64,000 nt of DNA from Flavobacteriaceae bacterium. Lineage in GTDB: Bacteria > Bacteroidota > Bacteroidia > Flavobacteriales > Flavobacteriaceae. The stretch is from NCBI GenBank assembly GCA_017857815.1, contig JAFMCL010000001.1, positions 1 to 64,000 of the forward strand, read 5' to 3'. Shown piece after piece: positions 2,206 through 8,485 of this stretch (the first letter of the stretch is position 1; the number at the start of each line of letters is the position of its first letter). A program made the position numbers and the translations under genes. Under the pieces are notes generated by a model. The model saw nothing but the letters and a program-made list of their open reading frames with translations. It searched no databases and was not told where the DNA came from.

Positions 2206-3576
2206 TTAAGATAGCATTCTTAAATGGTATGCTTTCGGCTGAACAAATGCTCGAATGCCTTGCGAAGATAGGGTGCTTCCTAAACCAGAATTCTTTCTTC
2301 CAGACCAAGGCACTTTTGGACTAACCCTGTCGCAACAATTCCAGTAGACGGTTCCAGAATTCATATTGTCTAAAATACGGATTGCCCTTTCTTCGTTGTT
2401 TGAGAAAACTGCCGATGTTAATCCATATTCTGTATCTAACATAAGCGTGGTAGCTTCCTCATCAGAACTTACTTTTTGTAACCCAATGATAGGCCCAAAT
2501 GATTCGTCTATCATAACTTTCATGTCATGATTACAATTTGCCAAAACTGTAGGTTCAAAATAATAACCTTCACCATCGATTGTACTTCCTCCTGTTAATA
2601 ATGTAGCCCCTTTAACAACAGCGTCTTCAACTTGATCTTTTAAGACTCCTAATTGTTGCGCTCTTGTAAGCGAACCAATAAAAGTGGACAAATCGTTGGG
2701 ATCTCCTATTTTATAGGATTTCACTTCTTCTGTAAAAGCTTCCACAAATTCATCATAAATTCTTTCAGCAATATAAATTCGCTCTATAGCACAGCAACTT
2801 TGTCCGTTATTATAAAAAGCGCCTTCGGCTGCATTGATGGCCGCTTGTTTAACATCAACAACATCTTCAGTAACGTACAAGGGGTCTTTACCTCCTAACT
2901 CCAATTGAACAGGTACCATTTTAGGTGCAACTGTTTGATATATGTGTGATCCTGTTTTATGCGAACCCGTAAAGAAATAACCATCTACCTCAGCTTCTAA
3001 AATATGTTGCCCTAAACTTCCATCACCAATTACACATTGAAAAACATCTTCAGGAATACCTGCTAGGTGTAAGTACGTCTCAAACTGCTTTCCTGTTAAT
3101 GTGGCAAATTCTGATGGTTTATACAACACCGAATTTCCAGCAACTAAGGCATATAAAAACACATTGTAACCAACATTATAAGGAAAGTTCCAAGCAGAAA
3201 TATTGGCGATAACTCCAAGTGGTTCATATTTTATATGCTCTAGCGTTGCACCTTCGTCAACCAATACTTCTGGTTCCAACCATTTTTCGGCATATTGTGA
3301 TAAGTGATCTATTCTATTTTGTGCTCCTAGAATTTCGTTTAGTGATTGTTGTAATGGCTTGCCTGTTTCTGATGTCAAAATTTGAGCTAGTACAAATTTG
3401 TTTTCTTGGATTAATTTTCCAAACTTTTTGATACAATTTAATCTATTATTTATCGTTACTTTTTTCCAACTTTTTTGTCCTTTCCGCAGGTTTTCTAACT
3501 TAGAATTTAGAGTTTGCTTAGTGTCTGATTTTATAGTTGAAAAAACTACTCCAGTAGCAGGATTGATAATATCCAT
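2206..3576 (-). CDS. NAD(P)-dependent aldehyde dehydrogenase (PuuC-like role in amine operon)
   Basis: A 456-residue aldehyde dehydrogenase. Visible motifs are NISAWNFP (coenzyme cleft), KPSEFA, FTGSHKTG (Rossmann turn), LELGGKDP with the general-base glutamate and GQSCCAIER with the catalytic cysteine. ESFGPIIG and the C-terminal SGRKNSGLG are also typical. It resembles the succinate-semialdehyde dehydrogenase branch. It is the last gene of a five-gene operon, 5 bases after the amidotransferase-like hydrolase. In that context it most likely oxidises a gamma-glutamyl aminoaldehyde to the acid, which would be gamma-glutamylglycine if the substrate is ethanolamine. The family is clear; the substrate is inferred from neighbours. 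Confidence 0.88.
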   Translation of the reverse strand: MDIINPATGVVFSTIKSDTKQTLNSKLENLRKGQKSWKKVTINNRLNCIKKFGKLIQENKFVLAQILTSETGKPLQQSLNEILGAQNRIDHLSQYAEKWLEPEVLVDEGATLEHIKYEPLGVIANISAWNFPYNVGYNVFLYALVAGNSVLYKPSEFATLTGKQFETYLHLAGIPEDVFQCVIGDGSLGQHILEAEVDGYFFTGSHKTGSHIYQTVAPKMVPVQLELGGKDPLYVTEDVVDVKQAAINAAEGAFYNNGQSCCAIERIYIAERIYDEFVEAFTEEVKSYKIGDPNDLSTFIGSLTRAQQLGVLKDQVEDAVVKGATLLTGGSTIDGEGYYFEPTVLANCNHDMKVMIDESFGPIIGLQKVSSDEEATTLMLDTEYGLTSAVFSNNEERAIRILDNMNSGTVYWNCCDRVSPKVPWSGRKNSGLGSTLSSQGIRAFVQPKAYHLRMLS

Positions 3577-3581
3577 ATTCT

Positions 3582-4322
3582 TTATTTAAAATGTTTTAAA
3601 AATGCATCAAAAAGCAAATCCGCGTCCACTAATTCGCTTTTGATTGTATGAAAAAATTCTGGATGCCACTGCACTCCAAATATTTTTCCTGCAGGTTCTT
3701 TAATGAATCCAAAGGCTTCTATTAAACCATCATCAGAAAATGCATATACTTCTAAATTTTCCCCTAAATCTTTCACCGCCTGATGATGCACAGTATTTAC
3801 ACAAGGATCTTTTTCATTAACATATAATTGATCTAAAAATCCCCCTTTAGTAAAAACAATAGGATGTTTTATGCTATCGTATAACAAAGCAGATCGATGG
3901 TCATTTACACCTTCTTTTTGTGTCAATGTATCTTGGTATAATGTCCCTCCAAAGTATACGTTCATTAATTGAAACCCTCTACATATACCCATAATAGGCT
4001 TTGAGTTTTTTACTGCATAATCCAAAATTTTTAACTCAAAAGCATCTCTATATGCATCTCCTTTCCATTTTCCAATGGGCTTTTCTCCATAAGTTTCTGG
4101 AGCAAGATCTACACCACCTTGAAGGACAAAACCATCCATTTCACTCAAAATATCATTCAATAATTTTTCATCCTTAATATCTGGAATCAAAACAGGCAGA
4201 ACTCCTTTTCGAGTCACATAATTAGCCATATCATTTTCAACATAACTCAATGATTTTGCCCCAAAAACATTTCTGTTTATATCGGGATACATAAAACATG
4301 ATGATATTCCTAACTTGATCAT
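3582..4322 (-). CDS. Class I glutamine amidotransferase-like hydrolase, PuuD type (peptidase C26)
   Basis: A 246-residue protein of the peptidase C26/class I amidotransferase fold, close to gamma-glutamyl-GABA hydrolase PuuD. It shows DGFVLQGGVD, the nucleophile elbow GICRG with catalytic cysteine, the HHQAV segment and the WHPEF motif carrying the catalytic His and Glu. There is no synthase partner domain, so it acts as a stand-alone hydrolase cleaving a gamma-glutamyl amide. It lies 9 bases after the iron alcohol dehydrogenase and 5 bases before the aldehyde dehydrogenase. In the proposed route it releases glutamate from the oxidised gamma-glutamyl intermediate. The family call is firm, the exact substrate inferred. 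Confidence 0.88.
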   Translation of the reverse strand: MIKLGISSCFMYPDINRNVFGAKSLSYVENDMANYVTRKGVLPVLIPDIKDEKLLNDILSEMDGFVLQGGVDLAPETYGEKPIGKWKGDAYRDAFELKILDYAVKNSKPIMGICRGFQLMNVYFGGTLYQDTLTQKEGVNDHRSALLYDSIKHPIVFTKGGFLDQLYVNEKDPCVNTVHHQAVKDLGENLEVYAFSDDGLIEAFGFIKEPAGKIFGVQWHPEFFHTIKSELVDADLLFDAFLKHFK

Positions 4323-4331
4323 TTTCTATAA

Positions 4332-5483
4332 TTATAATGCTTTTCTATATATCGCCTCAAATTCAGCTTTGGTTACTGGTTTAGGGTTAGAAGGATGACA
4401 AAAATCTTCTATCGCCAATTGTGATAGTGTATCAATATGAGATTCTTCAACACCAACATCTCTAAGTCTAGTAGGTAATCCTAATTCATTATTTAACTCA
4501 AATAAATATGGAATTACTTTTGCTGCAGAATTTGACCCAAGACCTAATGCTACTCCCATTTTATCAAACCTGTTTTCAAATCCTCTGTAATTAAATTCCA
4601 TCCCATAAGGTAAATTAATAGCATTGGCTAATCCGTGATGCGTATCTAATAAACTAGACATTGGGTGTGCTAAACTATGAACTATCCCAAGTCCCTTTTG
4701 AAAAGCCACCGCTCCCATTAATGAAGCCAATAACATTTTAGTCCTTGACTTAACATCTGGTTTAGTAGTTGCTGTTACTAAAGAATCAGAAATGAGTGAA
4801 ATGCCTTCTAGAGCAATACCATCACACATCGGGTGAAATCCTTTTGCTAAATAAGCCTCCATATTATGTGTAAGCGCATCCATACCCGTAGCTGCTGTAA
4901 TAAAACTAGGCAACTCCAAAGTAAGCAATGGATCAGCAAAAACGATTCTAGCTAACAGTTTTGGCGAAAAAAGAATACGTTTCTTTTTTGTATTATCTTC
5001 CGAGATAATGGCACTTCTACCCACTTCACTCCCTGTGCCTGAAGTTGTAGGGACTGTAATAAAATGAGGCACATCCTCGGTAACATATTTGTCTCCGCCA
5101 ATTAAATCATCATAATCAAATAAATCTCTTTTATGATTTACTCTCAAAACGATAGCTCTAGCGACATCAATTGCCACGCCTCCACCAATACCAATTATGC
5201 AATCTCTTTTCGTTTCATGATACCTATCTCCTCCATGCAACACATCAGATTTAATCGGATTTTTATGCATTTCTTTATAAATCTCTGAGTTTAATCCTTG
5301 TTGCTCTAAATCCTTTTGAATCTCTTTAAAAAATTTAAGTTCTGCTACATTAGGGTCGGTCACCAATAAAGGACTTGATAGATTATTATTTTTTAAATAG
5401 GATCCTAACTCTTTGATTACTCCAGCACCAAATCTTATGGGTGTTGGAAAATTAAAACTATAAACTTCTTTAATATCTAACAT
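4332..5483 (-). CDS. Iron-containing alcohol dehydrogenase
   Basis: A 383-residue group III (Fe-dependent) alcohol dehydrogenase. The N-terminal half carries the nucleotide-binding GIGGGVAIDVA, and VPTTSGTGSEV follows. The metal site is visible as TGMDALTHNMEAY (D and H region), HSLAHPMSS and THHGLANAI (further His ligands). It sits 11 bases after the gamma-glutamyl ligase gene. In the classical putrescine Puu pathway this position is filled by the FAD oxidase PuuB. An alcohol dehydrogenase fits an alcohol intermediate such as gamma-glutamylethanolamide, which is the main reason to propose an amino-alcohol substrate. Substrate is inference. Confidence 0.9.
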   Translation of the reverse strand: MLDIKEVYSFNFPTPIRFGAGVIKELGSYLKNNNLSSPLLVTDPNVAELKFFKEIQKDLEQQGLNSEIYKEMHKNPIKSDVLHGGDRYHETKRDCIIGIGGGVAIDVARAIVLRVNHKRDLFDYDDLIGGDKYVTEDVPHFITVPTTSGTGSEVGRSAIISEDNTKKKRILFSPKLLARIVFADPLLTLELPSFITAATGMDALTHNMEAYLAKGFHPMCDGIALEGISLISDSLVTATTKPDVKSRTKMLLASLMGAVAFQKGLGIVHSLAHPMSSLLDTHHGLANAINLPYGMEFNYRGFENRFDKMGVALGLGSNSAAKVIPYLFELNNELGLPTRLRDVGVEESHIDTLSQLAIEDFCHPSNPKPVTKAEFEAIYRKAL

Positions 5484-5494
5484 TTAAATACGTA

Positions 5495-6853
5495 TTATAA
5501 TATTTCAAAATATCTTTTTGTTTCCCAATCCGTAACTTCTTTAGAAAATTCTCTCCATTCCCATTCCCTAGTTTTGGTGAAATGATCTACAAAATCATCT
5601 CCAAATAATTCTTTGGCTATTTTAGATTGCTTCATTTTTTGGGAAGATTCCCATAAGTTCTTAGGTAATGCCCCATTACTATAATCTTCGTACCCATTCC
5701 CTTTAGTTGCTGGAGTTTCTAATTTCAACCCTTTCTTAATTCCATATAGCCCACTTGCTAAAGCTGCCGCCATAGCTAGGTAGGAATTGGTATCTGACCC
5801 AACAACTCTATGCTCAATTCTAGTTGACTGCTTTCCAGTTGTCAAAACCCTTAAAGCCGTAGTTCTATTGTCTATGCCCCAAGTTAAGTTGGTAGGGGCC
5901 CAAGCTCCTTCAACCAATCGTTTGTAACTGTTAATTGTTGGAGCAAACATGGGTAGAATCTCTGGTAAACAAATTAATTGTCCTGCTATATAGCTCTTCA
6001 TAATATCACTTATTTCATGCGCTTGATTACTGTCATAAAATAAGTTTTTCATCTTCTCCATATCCCACAAACTTTGGTGTATGTGTCCACTACAACCCGG
6101 CAAACTACTAATTTGTTTAGCCATAAAACTTGGAATAATACCATGTTTAAATCCTATTTGTTTTGCAGCAAGCTTGAAAAGTGCTGCTCGATCTGCAGCT
6201 TCCAAAATATCGCTGTACTCTATGGATGCTTCGGTAACACCAGGACCTGTTTCGGTATGTAATCCTTCTAGTGGAATATTGAAATCTTTCATTAAATCAA
6301 ATAAATCAGAGAAGTATGCATCATTCTCTCCCATTTTTAATAATGAGTATCCAAACATTCCTGATGTAATTGGATTTAAATTTTGAAAATTCTTTTCATA
6401 CAAAGATGTAGAAGATTCTCTATAATTAAACCATTCAAATTCTTGGGAAAATAAAGGCTTAAAGTTCATGTCTTCTGCCACTTTAATTACTTTTTTAAGC
6501 AACGTTCTGGGGCACACATAACTTTTATCATTAGCGGCGGTATCAAAATCTGCTATAAAAAAAGGAATGTCGTCTTCCCAAGGAATTGTCCTAATTGTGG
6601 AAGGGTCAATTTTAGCTTCCAAATCTCCATATCCAGTATGCCAACCTGTAACTTTTACATTGTCATAACATGCATCATTCATGTCCCATCCAAACACGAC
6701 TTGACAAAATCCAAACTCGGACTCTAATGCTGAAATAAACTTATTTTTGGACATAAATTTCCCACGTGCTACACCATCAATATCGATAATTGCCACTTTA
6801 ATTTTTTCATGCTTTTGTCCTTTTAATAGCGCTATGATTTCTTTTTTATTCAT
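5495..6853 (-). CDS. Glutamine synthetase-family gamma-glutamyl-amine/ethanolamide ligase
   Basis: A 452-residue member of the glutamine synthetase superfamily. It has the metal-binding SQEFEWF, HTETGPGVTEASIEY, the SGHIHQSL active-site histidine motif, NSYKRLVEGAWAPTN (ATP/phosphate loop) and RIEHRVVGSDTNSY. These are the PuuA/GlnA4-type variants rather than the motifs of a housekeeping enzyme, and a separate type II synthetase begins at 63828. Expected reaction: ATP-dependent coupling of glutamate to an amine. GlnA4 of Streptomyces coelicolor is a characterised gamma-glutamylethanolamide synthetase. The gene lies 5 bases after an ethanolamine-permease-like gene, so ethanolamine is the favoured substrate; polyamines remain possible. 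Confidence 0.87.
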   Translation of the reverse strand: MNKKEIIALLKGQKHEKIKVAIIDIDGVARGKFMSKNKFISALESEFGFCQVVFGWDMNDACYDNVKVTGWHTGYGDLEAKIDPSTIRTIPWEDDIPFFIADFDTAANDKSYVCPRTLLKKVIKVAEDMNFKPLFSQEFEWFNYRESSTSLYEKNFQNLNPITSGMFGYSLLKMGENDAYFSDLFDLMKDFNIPLEGLHTETGPGVTEASIEYSDILEAADRAALFKLAAKQIGFKHGIIPSFMAKQISSLPGCSGHIHQSLWDMEKMKNLFYDSNQAHEISDIMKSYIAGQLICLPEILPMFAPTINSYKRLVEGAWAPTNLTWGIDNRTTALRVLTTGKQSTRIEHRVVGSDTNSYLAMAAALASGLYGIKKGLKLETPATKGNGYEDYSNGALPKNLWESSQKMKQSKIAKELFGDDFVDHFTKTREWEWREFSKEVTDWETKRYFEIL

Positions 6854-6858
6854 AATAT

Positions 6859-8175
6859 TTAAGGTGTCATTTTATTATTTAAAAAAAATAAAAAGTATAG
6901 ATAGGTCAGCCCTACTAGTGCGAAAAATACAGTTGCAATAACTGGATTGTAATAACTCATCGCTATCAAAGCAACCGATGCAATGATAAGAGCTGTTATT
7001 GGAAAGAGCGGATACATAGGAGCCTTAAAAGGCCTTTTCATTTCTGGTTCATTTTTTTTTAATTGTAAGTAAGCAACCATAGAAACGATATATAATAATA
7101 ATGCTCCAAAGCAAGCCATTGTAATTATTTCGGCTGTTTTTCCTGTAAACAAGGCAACGATACCAACTAGCATATTAACTATTAGTGCATTTGCAGGTGT
7201 TTTAAATTTACTGTGAATATTCCCTAGATATTTGGGAGCATACCCAACTCTACCAAATTCCATAATAGCTCTTCCTCCAGCTAAAATAATTCCATGAAAA
7301 GAGGCTATTAGACCTAGCAATCCTATTCCAATTAATAATTTATATAGCACATGTGAACTGTCTACAATTTGTCCTAAGGCCAATGGTAGTGGCGAGTCTG
7401 AAGCTACATCGCTCCCCTCTGGGTAAACCACCGCTTCCCAACCGCCTACCCCTACTGCAGCAGTGTAGGTTAGAACACATAGTATTACTAATGTTGTTAT
7501 GGCGGACCCAAACCCGATTAAAATACTTCGCTGTGGATTTATTGCTTCCTCGGCTACATTAGCGACGCCTTCGATGGCTAAAAAGAACCATATGGCAAAA
7601 GGAATTGCAGCAAAAATACCTGAAATACCATTTGGCATTGGGTTTATTTGTAGATTACTGTACTCGAATTCTGGTAAAGCTACACCTGCAAAGATCAATA
7701 ATTCTATAACCGCAAAAATGGTAATTACCAATTCAAAAGTTGCGGCAATCTTAACACCTAAAATATTTATTAGGGTAAAAATTAAATAGGCTCCAATAGC
7801 AAAAACAAGCAATGGAACTGATGGGTATAATAAATTTAAATATGCTCCAATCGCAGCAGAAATAGCTGGTGGTGCAAATACAAATTCAATATTCTGTGCA
7901 ATTCCTGCAATAAACCCAAAATGCTTTCCCAAACCTCGATTTGCATACTCAAATGCACCGCCTGCTTTGGGTATCGCACAAGCCATTTCGGTATAGCTAA
8001 ATGTGAAAGTAACATACATAATAATGATGAAAAAGGTTGCAATTGCCAACCCATAAGTCCCACCTTCTGCTAAGCCTAAATTCCATCCGAAATACATTCC
8101 AGAAATTACATATCCTACACCAAGTCCCCATAACATAAGTGGACTTAGTACTTTAGTCAGCTCCGTTTTACTCAT
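6859..8175 (-). CDS. APC-family permease, ethanolamine permease-like
   Basis: A 438-residue integral membrane protein of the amino acid-polyamine-organocation superfamily with about 12 hydrophobic helices. The N-terminal block LGVGYVISGMYFGWNLGL and the middle block AIPFAIWFFLAIEG followed by NVAEEA strongly resemble the ethanolamine permease subfamily as I remember it, more than PuuP or general amino acid permeases. It is the first gene of the five-gene amine operon and probably imports the substrate across the inner membrane. The permease subfamily is the best clue to ethanolamine. Confidence is high for APC and moderate for ethanolamine specificity. Confidence 0.85.
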   Translation of the reverse strand: MSKTELTKVLSPLMLWGLGVGYVISGMYFGWNLGLAEGGTYGLAIATFFIIIMYVTFTFSYTEMACAIPKAGGAFEYANRGLGKHFGFIAGIAQNIEFVFAPPAISAAIGAYLNLLYPSVPLLVFAIGAYLIFTLINILGVKIAATFELVITIFAVIELLIFAGVALPEFEYSNLQINPMPNGISGIFAAIPFAIWFFLAIEGVANVAEEAINPQRSILIGFGSAITTLVILCVLTYTAAVGVGGWEAVVYPEGSDVASDSPLPLALGQIVDSSHVLYKLLIGIGLLGLIASFHGIILAGGRAIMEFGRVGYAPKYLGNIHSKFKTPANALIVNMLVGIVALFTGKTAEIITMACFGALLLYIVSMVAYLQLKKNEPEMKRPFKAPMYPLFPITALIIASVALIAMSYYNPVIATVFFALVGLTYLYFLFFLNNKMTP

Positions 8176-8230
8176 ATTTGATTAATTTTAACACGAATAG
8201 ATTTTAACATTCATCTTGGGTATAATACTA

Positions 8231-8485
8231 TTATAATTCACAACCATTTAATTCTTCAAATTTCCACTTTCCATCTGATGGCCATTTCCAAACTGTATGA
8301 AATGCACTCGTAACAATATTTTTAAAACCAATTTGATCGGTTGTTGAGTAAATATAATTACCATAAATATATCTTAAATCATTCGATAAAGCTAAATCTG
8401 TAAAGTCAGGTTTTCAACATTCAATAAAACCAGCGGTTCTCATTCTTAGATTTTCAAAATTCTTAAAGTACAAGCCCTCAGCTAT
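8231..8485 (-). pseudogene. Relic of an NTF2-like (SnoaL/DUF4440-type) protein
   Basis: On the minus strand this gap reads as protein-like sequence with an in-frame TGA at 8414-8416 and a further stop at 8486-8488. The piece before the TGA includes KNFENLRMRTAGFIEC. The piece after it includes KPDFTDLAL, YIYGNYIYST and the end segment AFHTVWKWPSDGKWKF. The pattern HTVWK followed by DGKWKF resembles the C-terminal strands of SnoaL/DUF4440 proteins, where a Trp is common at the position of the TGA. There is no intact N-terminus or start. The relic lies just upstream of the amine operon, so the operon promoter must lie within or very near it. Confidence 0.5.

Follow-up and report, generated by a model that had tools for sequence, protein, structure and literature searches.

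A candidate ethanolamine catabolic operon of the Flavobacteriaceae that pairs an Eat-like permease with a glutamine synthetase-like ligase

Introduction

Ethanolamine derived from phosphatidylethanolamine constitutes a large source of nitrogen and carbon in the sea. Here we describe a five-gene operon in a 64,000-nucleotide stretch of DNA (hereafter the window; positions 1 to 64,000, forward strand, of contig JAFMCL010000001.1 in the Flavobacteriaceae bacterium assembly GCA_017857815.1), which we interpret, with a probability of roughly three in four, as an ethanolamine catabolic cassette, namely a Bacteroidota version of the established gamma-glutamyl route for ethanolamine in which at least the ligase comes from a different branch. 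The host flavobacterium is likely to be marine, and its genome (2.2 Mb in 55 contigs) is estimated to be 99.58% complete.

The chemistry of such a pathway is already on record. According to the excerpted text of the pertinent sources, GlnA4 of Streptomyces coelicolor makes gamma-glutamylethanolamide in vitro, the rest of a route from ethanolamine to glycine being proposed (PMC6529630), and the same four-step route has been proposed for C. salexigens (PMC9397018). In the marine Phaeobacter sp. MED193, the whole Eto operon is induced by phosphorylethanolamine, with EtoX and four enzymes (the ligase, the hydrolase and the two dehydrogenases) becoming more abundant, and EtoX binds ethanolamine with a Kd of 7.9 uM (PMC10132767). 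Hence, the four steps that the original prediction set out for this locus had been proposed before. The phenotype itself is not new either, since Flavobacterium is among the genera reported as ethanolamine users in the excerpted text of PMC9397018. Ethanolamine use has been tracked via the TRAP protein EtoX, about 94% of the etoX hits being from Alphaproteobacteria (excerpted text of PMC10132767). A search of the openly licensed PMC literature returned no paper on the operon in Bacteroidota; what sets the Bacteroidota operon apart is its parts. If our interpretation is right, ethanolamine users with an Eat-like permease and the other ligase branch would be invisible to the etoX marker, and the operon would be a test case for the convergent assembly of one pathway.

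Organization and conservation of the operon

The five genes lie on the minus strand as a tight operon, just as the original prediction had it, with gaps of 5, 11, 9 and 5 bases from the permease to the aldehyde dehydrogenase (ALDH). Pfam models back all five labels (APC permease, glutamine synthetase [GS] catalytic domain, iron-dependent alcohol dehydrogenase [Fe-ADH], C26 peptidase of the PuuD type and ALDH):

6859..8175, minus strand: predicted ethanolamine permease (Eat-like APC transporter), first gene of the operon; 438 aa; TIGR00908, 451.7 bits
5495..6853, minus strand: GS-like amine ligase, proposed gamma-glutamylethanolamide synthetase; 452 aa; PF00120, 309 bits
4332..5483, minus strand: Fe-ADH, proposed gamma-glutamylethanolamide dehydrogenase; 383 aa; PF00465 and PF25137
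3582..4322, minus strand: PuuD-type C26 amidohydrolase, proposed gamma-glutamylglycine hydrolase; 246 aa; PF07722, 188 bits
2206..3576, minus strand: ALDH, proposed gamma-glutamylaminoacetaldehyde dehydrogenase, last gene of the operon; 456 aa; PF00171, 415 bits

A ligase, a dehydrogenase for a hydroxyl group, an ALDH and a gamma-glutamyl amide hydrolase, the gene set of a glutamylation pathway, are thus encoded together. In the proposed pathway, the permease would take up ethanolamine, which the ligase, with ATP, would couple to the gamma-carboxyl of glutamate. The Fe-ADH would turn the free hydroxyl of the gamma-glutamylethanolamide into an aldehyde, which the ALDH would oxidize to gamma-glutamylglycine, and the PuuD-type hydrolase would then free glycine and regenerate glutamate. 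The glycine may feed the glycine cleavage system, the P-protein of which is encoded in the same genome.

The co-occurrence of the five genes was surveyed in 60 distinct loci, each with a ligase that shares at least 50% identity with that of the window; the complete order permease-ligase-Fe-ADH-PuuD-ALDH is found on one strand in 33 of them and hence is not the product of chance. These loci came from 17 other genomes of the family, 31 named loci and 26 of the 40 other ligase-positive genomes in a phylum sample of 395 Bacteroidota genomes; the remaining 14 genomes, which share the family code f24, were left out, as were nine duplicate loci and five with a ligase below 50% identity. A further 20 loci carry a different triad (see below), and seven show other arrangements. 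At individual loci, an operon-like cluster lacks the permease (L047), ALDH, PuuD and ADH lie on the opposite strand (L058), no hydrolase match is present (L060), or the ligase stands without any of the other four genes (L065), and two metagenome-assembled genomes of Betaproteobacteria have ADH and ALDH and no permease (L063 and L064). The locus of Flavobacteriales bacterium SI039_bin50 (L067) is cut by the contig end; it shows a ligase fragment 95% identical to that of the window, followed by ADH, PuuD and ALDH. Within the family, a ligase match (E <= 1e-60) was recovered in 18 of 299 genomes, own genome included; of the 17 others, 12 have the full order (ligase 65-87% identical), three a group-B cassette (see below), one the triad and one an Eto-type cassette. 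Cultured relatives that carry the operon include Kriegella aquimaris DSM 19886 and Sinomicrobium oceani.

The permease and the predicted substrate

Against the ethanolamine permease model TIGR00908, the permease reaches 451.7 bits, above the model's curated cut-off of 381.75. In a tree of 43 of the 47 collected permeases, whose root is unsure as the outgroup PuuP forms a long branch, it groups with permeases adjoining EutB and with those adjoining Eto-type ligases, in agreement with the original prediction of an ethanolamine-type permease rather than an amino acid transporter. Across the phylum sample, a permease above the TIGR00908 cut-off was detected in 20 genomes, EutB in 12 and the ligase (E <= 1e-100) in 41. 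By coordinates, EutB is no more than about 0.7 kb away from seven of these 20 permeases; eight others lie beside a window-type ligase (own genome included), and two more in cassettes of an Eto-type ligase, a short-chain dehydrogenase/reductase (SDR), an ALDH and an amidotransferase. None of the eight genomes with a ligase-linked permease has a match to EutB; in the single case tested by Pfam (L135), EutC follows EutB. The Eto-linked permeases are 65-68% and the EutB-linked ones 43-48% identical to that of the window. As members of this one permease family accompany EutB in part of the genomes and glutamylation cassettes elsewhere, the family points to ethanolamine. In addition, the ALDH within the operon implies that the substrate is a primary alcohol. 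Taking these findings together, we propose ethanolamine as the best candidate substrate of the operon.

The dehydrogenases, the hydrolase and the missing Eut and Puu components

The motifs ELGGK and GQSC of the ALDH, GICRG and HPE of the hydrolase, and DALTH and HHGLAN of the Fe-ADH, to which we ascribe presumed functional roles, were all located and are intact. The Fe-ADH and the ALDH are 37% and 34% identical to the Eto ADH and Eto ALDH of Paracoccus, respectively; the hydrolase is 31% identical to Escherichia coli PuuD and matches the solved PuuD structure 6vtv with an E value of 3e-23. E. coli PuuB has no tblastn match in the whole window at E <= 0.001, so that the predicted replacement of PuuB by an alcohol dehydrogenase holds as far as the sequence goes. 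The N-formylglutamate amidohydrolase and EtoX of Paracoccus likewise gave no tblastn match in the window at that threshold.

The Eut pathway is defined by EutB together with a shell of BMC proteins, and neither family has a match in the 99.58%-complete genome; control searches for EutB and BMC gave matches in one and two of 14 genomes, respectively, E. coli being among them in both cases. A shell- or B12-dependent route is accordingly rejected, in line with the original prediction. The Puu putrescine pathway, for its part, is defined by the FAD oxidase PuuB and by a ligase of the PuuA type; the former has no match in the window, and the ligase of the operon stays under the PuuA-type cut-off (see below).

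The ligase and its affinities

The ligase stays below the cut-offs of all GS and PuuA models of NCBIfam, scoring 218.7 bits against the GS model TIGR00653 (cut-off 429.15) and 185.5 bits against the PuuA-type model GGputSyn (cut-off 650). Its best PDB matches are 11zs (E 6e-75) and 5dm3 (E 7e-73), both only 32-33% identical; we take the source of 5dm3 to be Chromohalobacter salexigens. Its identity is 44-46% to the ligases that we term group B, 36-38% to IpuC, about 33% to the Eto type and 24-26% to PuuA. In an alignment from which five of the 81 collected ligases were left out, the metal, glutamate and ATP/nucleotide residues are retained. The E327-flap position, Glu in glutamine synthetase, is Trp in all 32 aligned operon ligases (Trp318 in that of the window); the same position is given as Trp in PauA7 and Phe in GlnA4 in the excerpted text of PMC6529630.

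A quick tree was built from 69 of the 81 ligases and a more careful one from 38. In the latter, the operon ligases form one group with a support of 90/85, a value that is not firm. The Eto clade (100/99) unites 5dm3, the Paracoccus Eto ligase and three Bacteroidota ligases (L037, L138 and L139), and the group-B ligases form a separate clade (100/98). An assignment of the ligase to the Eto type through its best PDB matches was rejected by the trees and by the approximately unbiased (AU) test reported below.

Evidence against the ethanolamine interpretation and alternative explanations

Several observations weigh against ethanolamine as the substrate. The ligase lies outside the Eto clade, and a single clade of operon and Eto ligases is rejected (AU test on the same 38 ligases, p = 0.00014, the group tested having been chosen after the quick tree was seen). 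Hence, ligase homology by itself gives no support for ethanolamine. All 20 triad loci, which belong to Balneolaceae and other Bacteroidota, have the 50-60% identical relatives of the ligase next to a HAD-IIA hydrolase and an unclassified protein of 345 aa (K); with relatives in such a different gene context, the substrate cannot be read from the ligase alone. At the 90% level, operon and triad ligases are told apart by only one of the 458 columns of the full-set alignment, and there is therefore no sign of a substrate change in the pocket. In 27 of the 32 operon ligases, Asp persists at the position aligned with D50, the residue that binds ammonia in glutamine synthetase, though the alignment is loose there; the excerpted text of PMC6529630 describes D50 as lacking conservation in PauA7 and GlnA4. 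Three of the 20 permeases above the cut-off (G655, G479 and G503) adjoin neither EutB, a window-type ligase nor an Eto-type cassette. The best NCBIfam models are 4-hydroxybutyrate dehydrogenase for the ADH and succinic semialdehyde dehydrogenase for the ALDH, both matched far under their cut-offs. Finally, two genomes of the same genus (91% and 86% complete) have no ligase match. The predicted substrate thus rests on the permease and the downstream enzymes, not on the ligase. As far as can be judged from sequence, the original prediction holds for ethanolamine as substrate, for the ADH substituting for PuuB and for the lack of EutB and shell proteins.

The triad context and the conserved Asp would favor a ligase that is a glutamine synthetase or shares the function of its triad relatives, with the operon handling a metabolite that the sequence does not reveal. 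We consider this quite improbable, given the flap Glu-to-Trp replacement in all 32 ligases, the separate glutamine synthetase encoded near the end of the window and the operon context fixed across 33 loci. A different primary amino alcohol (alaninol, serinol, 3-amino-1-propanol or N-methylethanolamine), converted by the same chemistry to the matching amino acid, is unlikely, but the ligase, ADH, ALDH and hydrolase require just a primary alcohol and the ligase is closer to IpuC than to the Eto ligases. On two Paenarthrobacter plasmids, the genes labeled ipuC are accompanied by amidotransferases, an SDR and a P450. What speaks for ethanolamine over these compounds is that relatives of the permease adjoin EutB, an ethanolamine lyase, in seven genomes of the sample. 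Isopropanolamine was discarded by reasoning, since a secondary alcohol would yield a ketone and leave the ALDH without a use.

The PuuD-type hydrolase and the PuuC-like ALDH also recall a polyamine or diamine pathway of the Puu kind, in which the ADH would be incidental or act as an aldehyde reductase; some group-B ligases have a class III aminotransferase and an ABC transporter for spermidine/putrescine as neighbors (L107). Such a pathway appears highly improbable, because PuuB is unmatched in the window, the permease is just 24% identical to PuuP as against its 451.7 bits to the ethanolamine permease model, and the ligase resembles PuuA at only 24-26% identity.

The ligase-K-HAD triad and other cassettes

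The triad (L119, L120, L121, L122, L124-L126, L128-L131, L133, L134, L143, L147-L150, L059 and L061) consists of the ligase, protein K and the HAD-IIA hydrolase, without a permease or dehydrogenase; L036 is a triad with a 45% identical ligase. Protein K has no match in Pfam or NCBIfam and none to a PDB chain at E <= 1, and an AlphaFold model of it from two sequences has a mean pLDDT of 46.7. By eye, it shows a D-W-N-x-G-N ... D-Y-D pattern, which we take to be like that of aminoglycoside/choline kinases. A search for K in the own genome, made without a positive control, gave no match. Either the triad, too, acts on an amino alcohol bound to glutamate as a gamma-glutamyl amide, or the ligase substrate shifts without an obvious trace.

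Two further cassettes were noted in flavobacteria or other Bacteroidota. In one (L037, L138 and L139), the ligase is of the Eto type and an SDR stands where the window has the Fe-ADH, together with an ALDH, an amidotransferase and a permease of the same family as that of the window. The other (L033-L035) has a group-B ligase and a permease 32-35% identical to that of the window; that of L033, the only one tested, reaches 356 bits against TIGR00908, just under the cut-off.

We put forward, as a conjecture whose chances seem about even, that the gamma-glutamyl ethanolamine route arose more than once. The partners of one permease family in Bacteroidota would then be at least two and perhaps three GS-superfamily branches unrelated to one another (that of the window, Eto and group B), every one of them with an Fe-ADH or SDR of its own, and, in separate cases, EutBC. 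The ligase branch of the window might have been recruited from the undescribed ligase-K-phosphatase triad, or be shared with it.

Surroundings of the operon

A promoter and terminator scan gave no more sites than in shuffled sequences. On the minus strand, the stretch 8176-8420 upstream of the permease resembles, by eye, the 3' end of a broken gene. At another locus (L025:5802-6263), a divergent gene for an Lrp/AsnC regulator lies upstream of the permease, and several other loci have divergent open reading frames of similar length there; the open reading frame list of the window has none of this kind upstream of its permease. Near the end of the window is the second glutamine synthetase:

63828 (~63,830) to beyond 64000: glutamine synthetase, 335 aa; PF03951 (beta-grasp domain) and PF00120

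Comparison with known systems

Among the closest described counterparts is the Eto operon of marine Alphaproteobacteria (Phaeobacter sp. MED193; Paracoccus denitrificans), which shares with that of the window a ligase, an ALDH, an Fe-ADH, an amide hydrolase and a transporter, and for which conversion of ethanolamine to glycine has been proposed (excerpted text of PMC10132767). It differs in having the TRAP transporter EtoVWX, an RpiR regulator, a hydrolase of the N-formylglutamate amidohydrolase type and the order GS-ALDH-ADH, the arrangement on P. denitrificans plasmid 1 being RpiR-hydrolase-TRAP-GS-ALDH-Fe-ADH. The likeness to Phaeobacter is by description, whereas the Paracoccus proteins were compared directly (33% identity for the ligase, 37% for the ADH and 34% for the ALDH). 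The operon is not built from orthologues of the proteobacterial Eto proteins: its ligase stems from another branch, its transporter is Eat-like instead of TRAP and its hydrolase is of the PuuD type rather than the N-formylglutamate amidohydrolase type.

In the GlnA4 cluster of S. coelicolor (SCO1610-1615), a ligase, an ALDH and an amidohydrolase recur, and a putative ethanolamine permease lies nearby in other species (excerpted text of PMC6529630), but a short-chain dehydrogenase stands where the window has the Fe-ADH; the GlnA4 sequence was outside our ligase trees. The group-B cassettes of a Legionella lytica plasmid (L104), Photobacterium (L108) and flavobacteria (L033-L035) agree with the operon in GS, ALDH, Fe-ADH and amidotransferase, and those of L033-L035 also in the permease, but their ligases form a separate clade at 44-46% identity and the order is GS-ALDH-ADH. 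With the Puu system of E. coli, the operon would have in common glutamylation, an ALDH and a PuuD-type hydrolase; there, PuuB carries out the oxidation, whereas in the operon of the window the ADH would take over that step, next to a ligase only 24-26% identical to PuuA.

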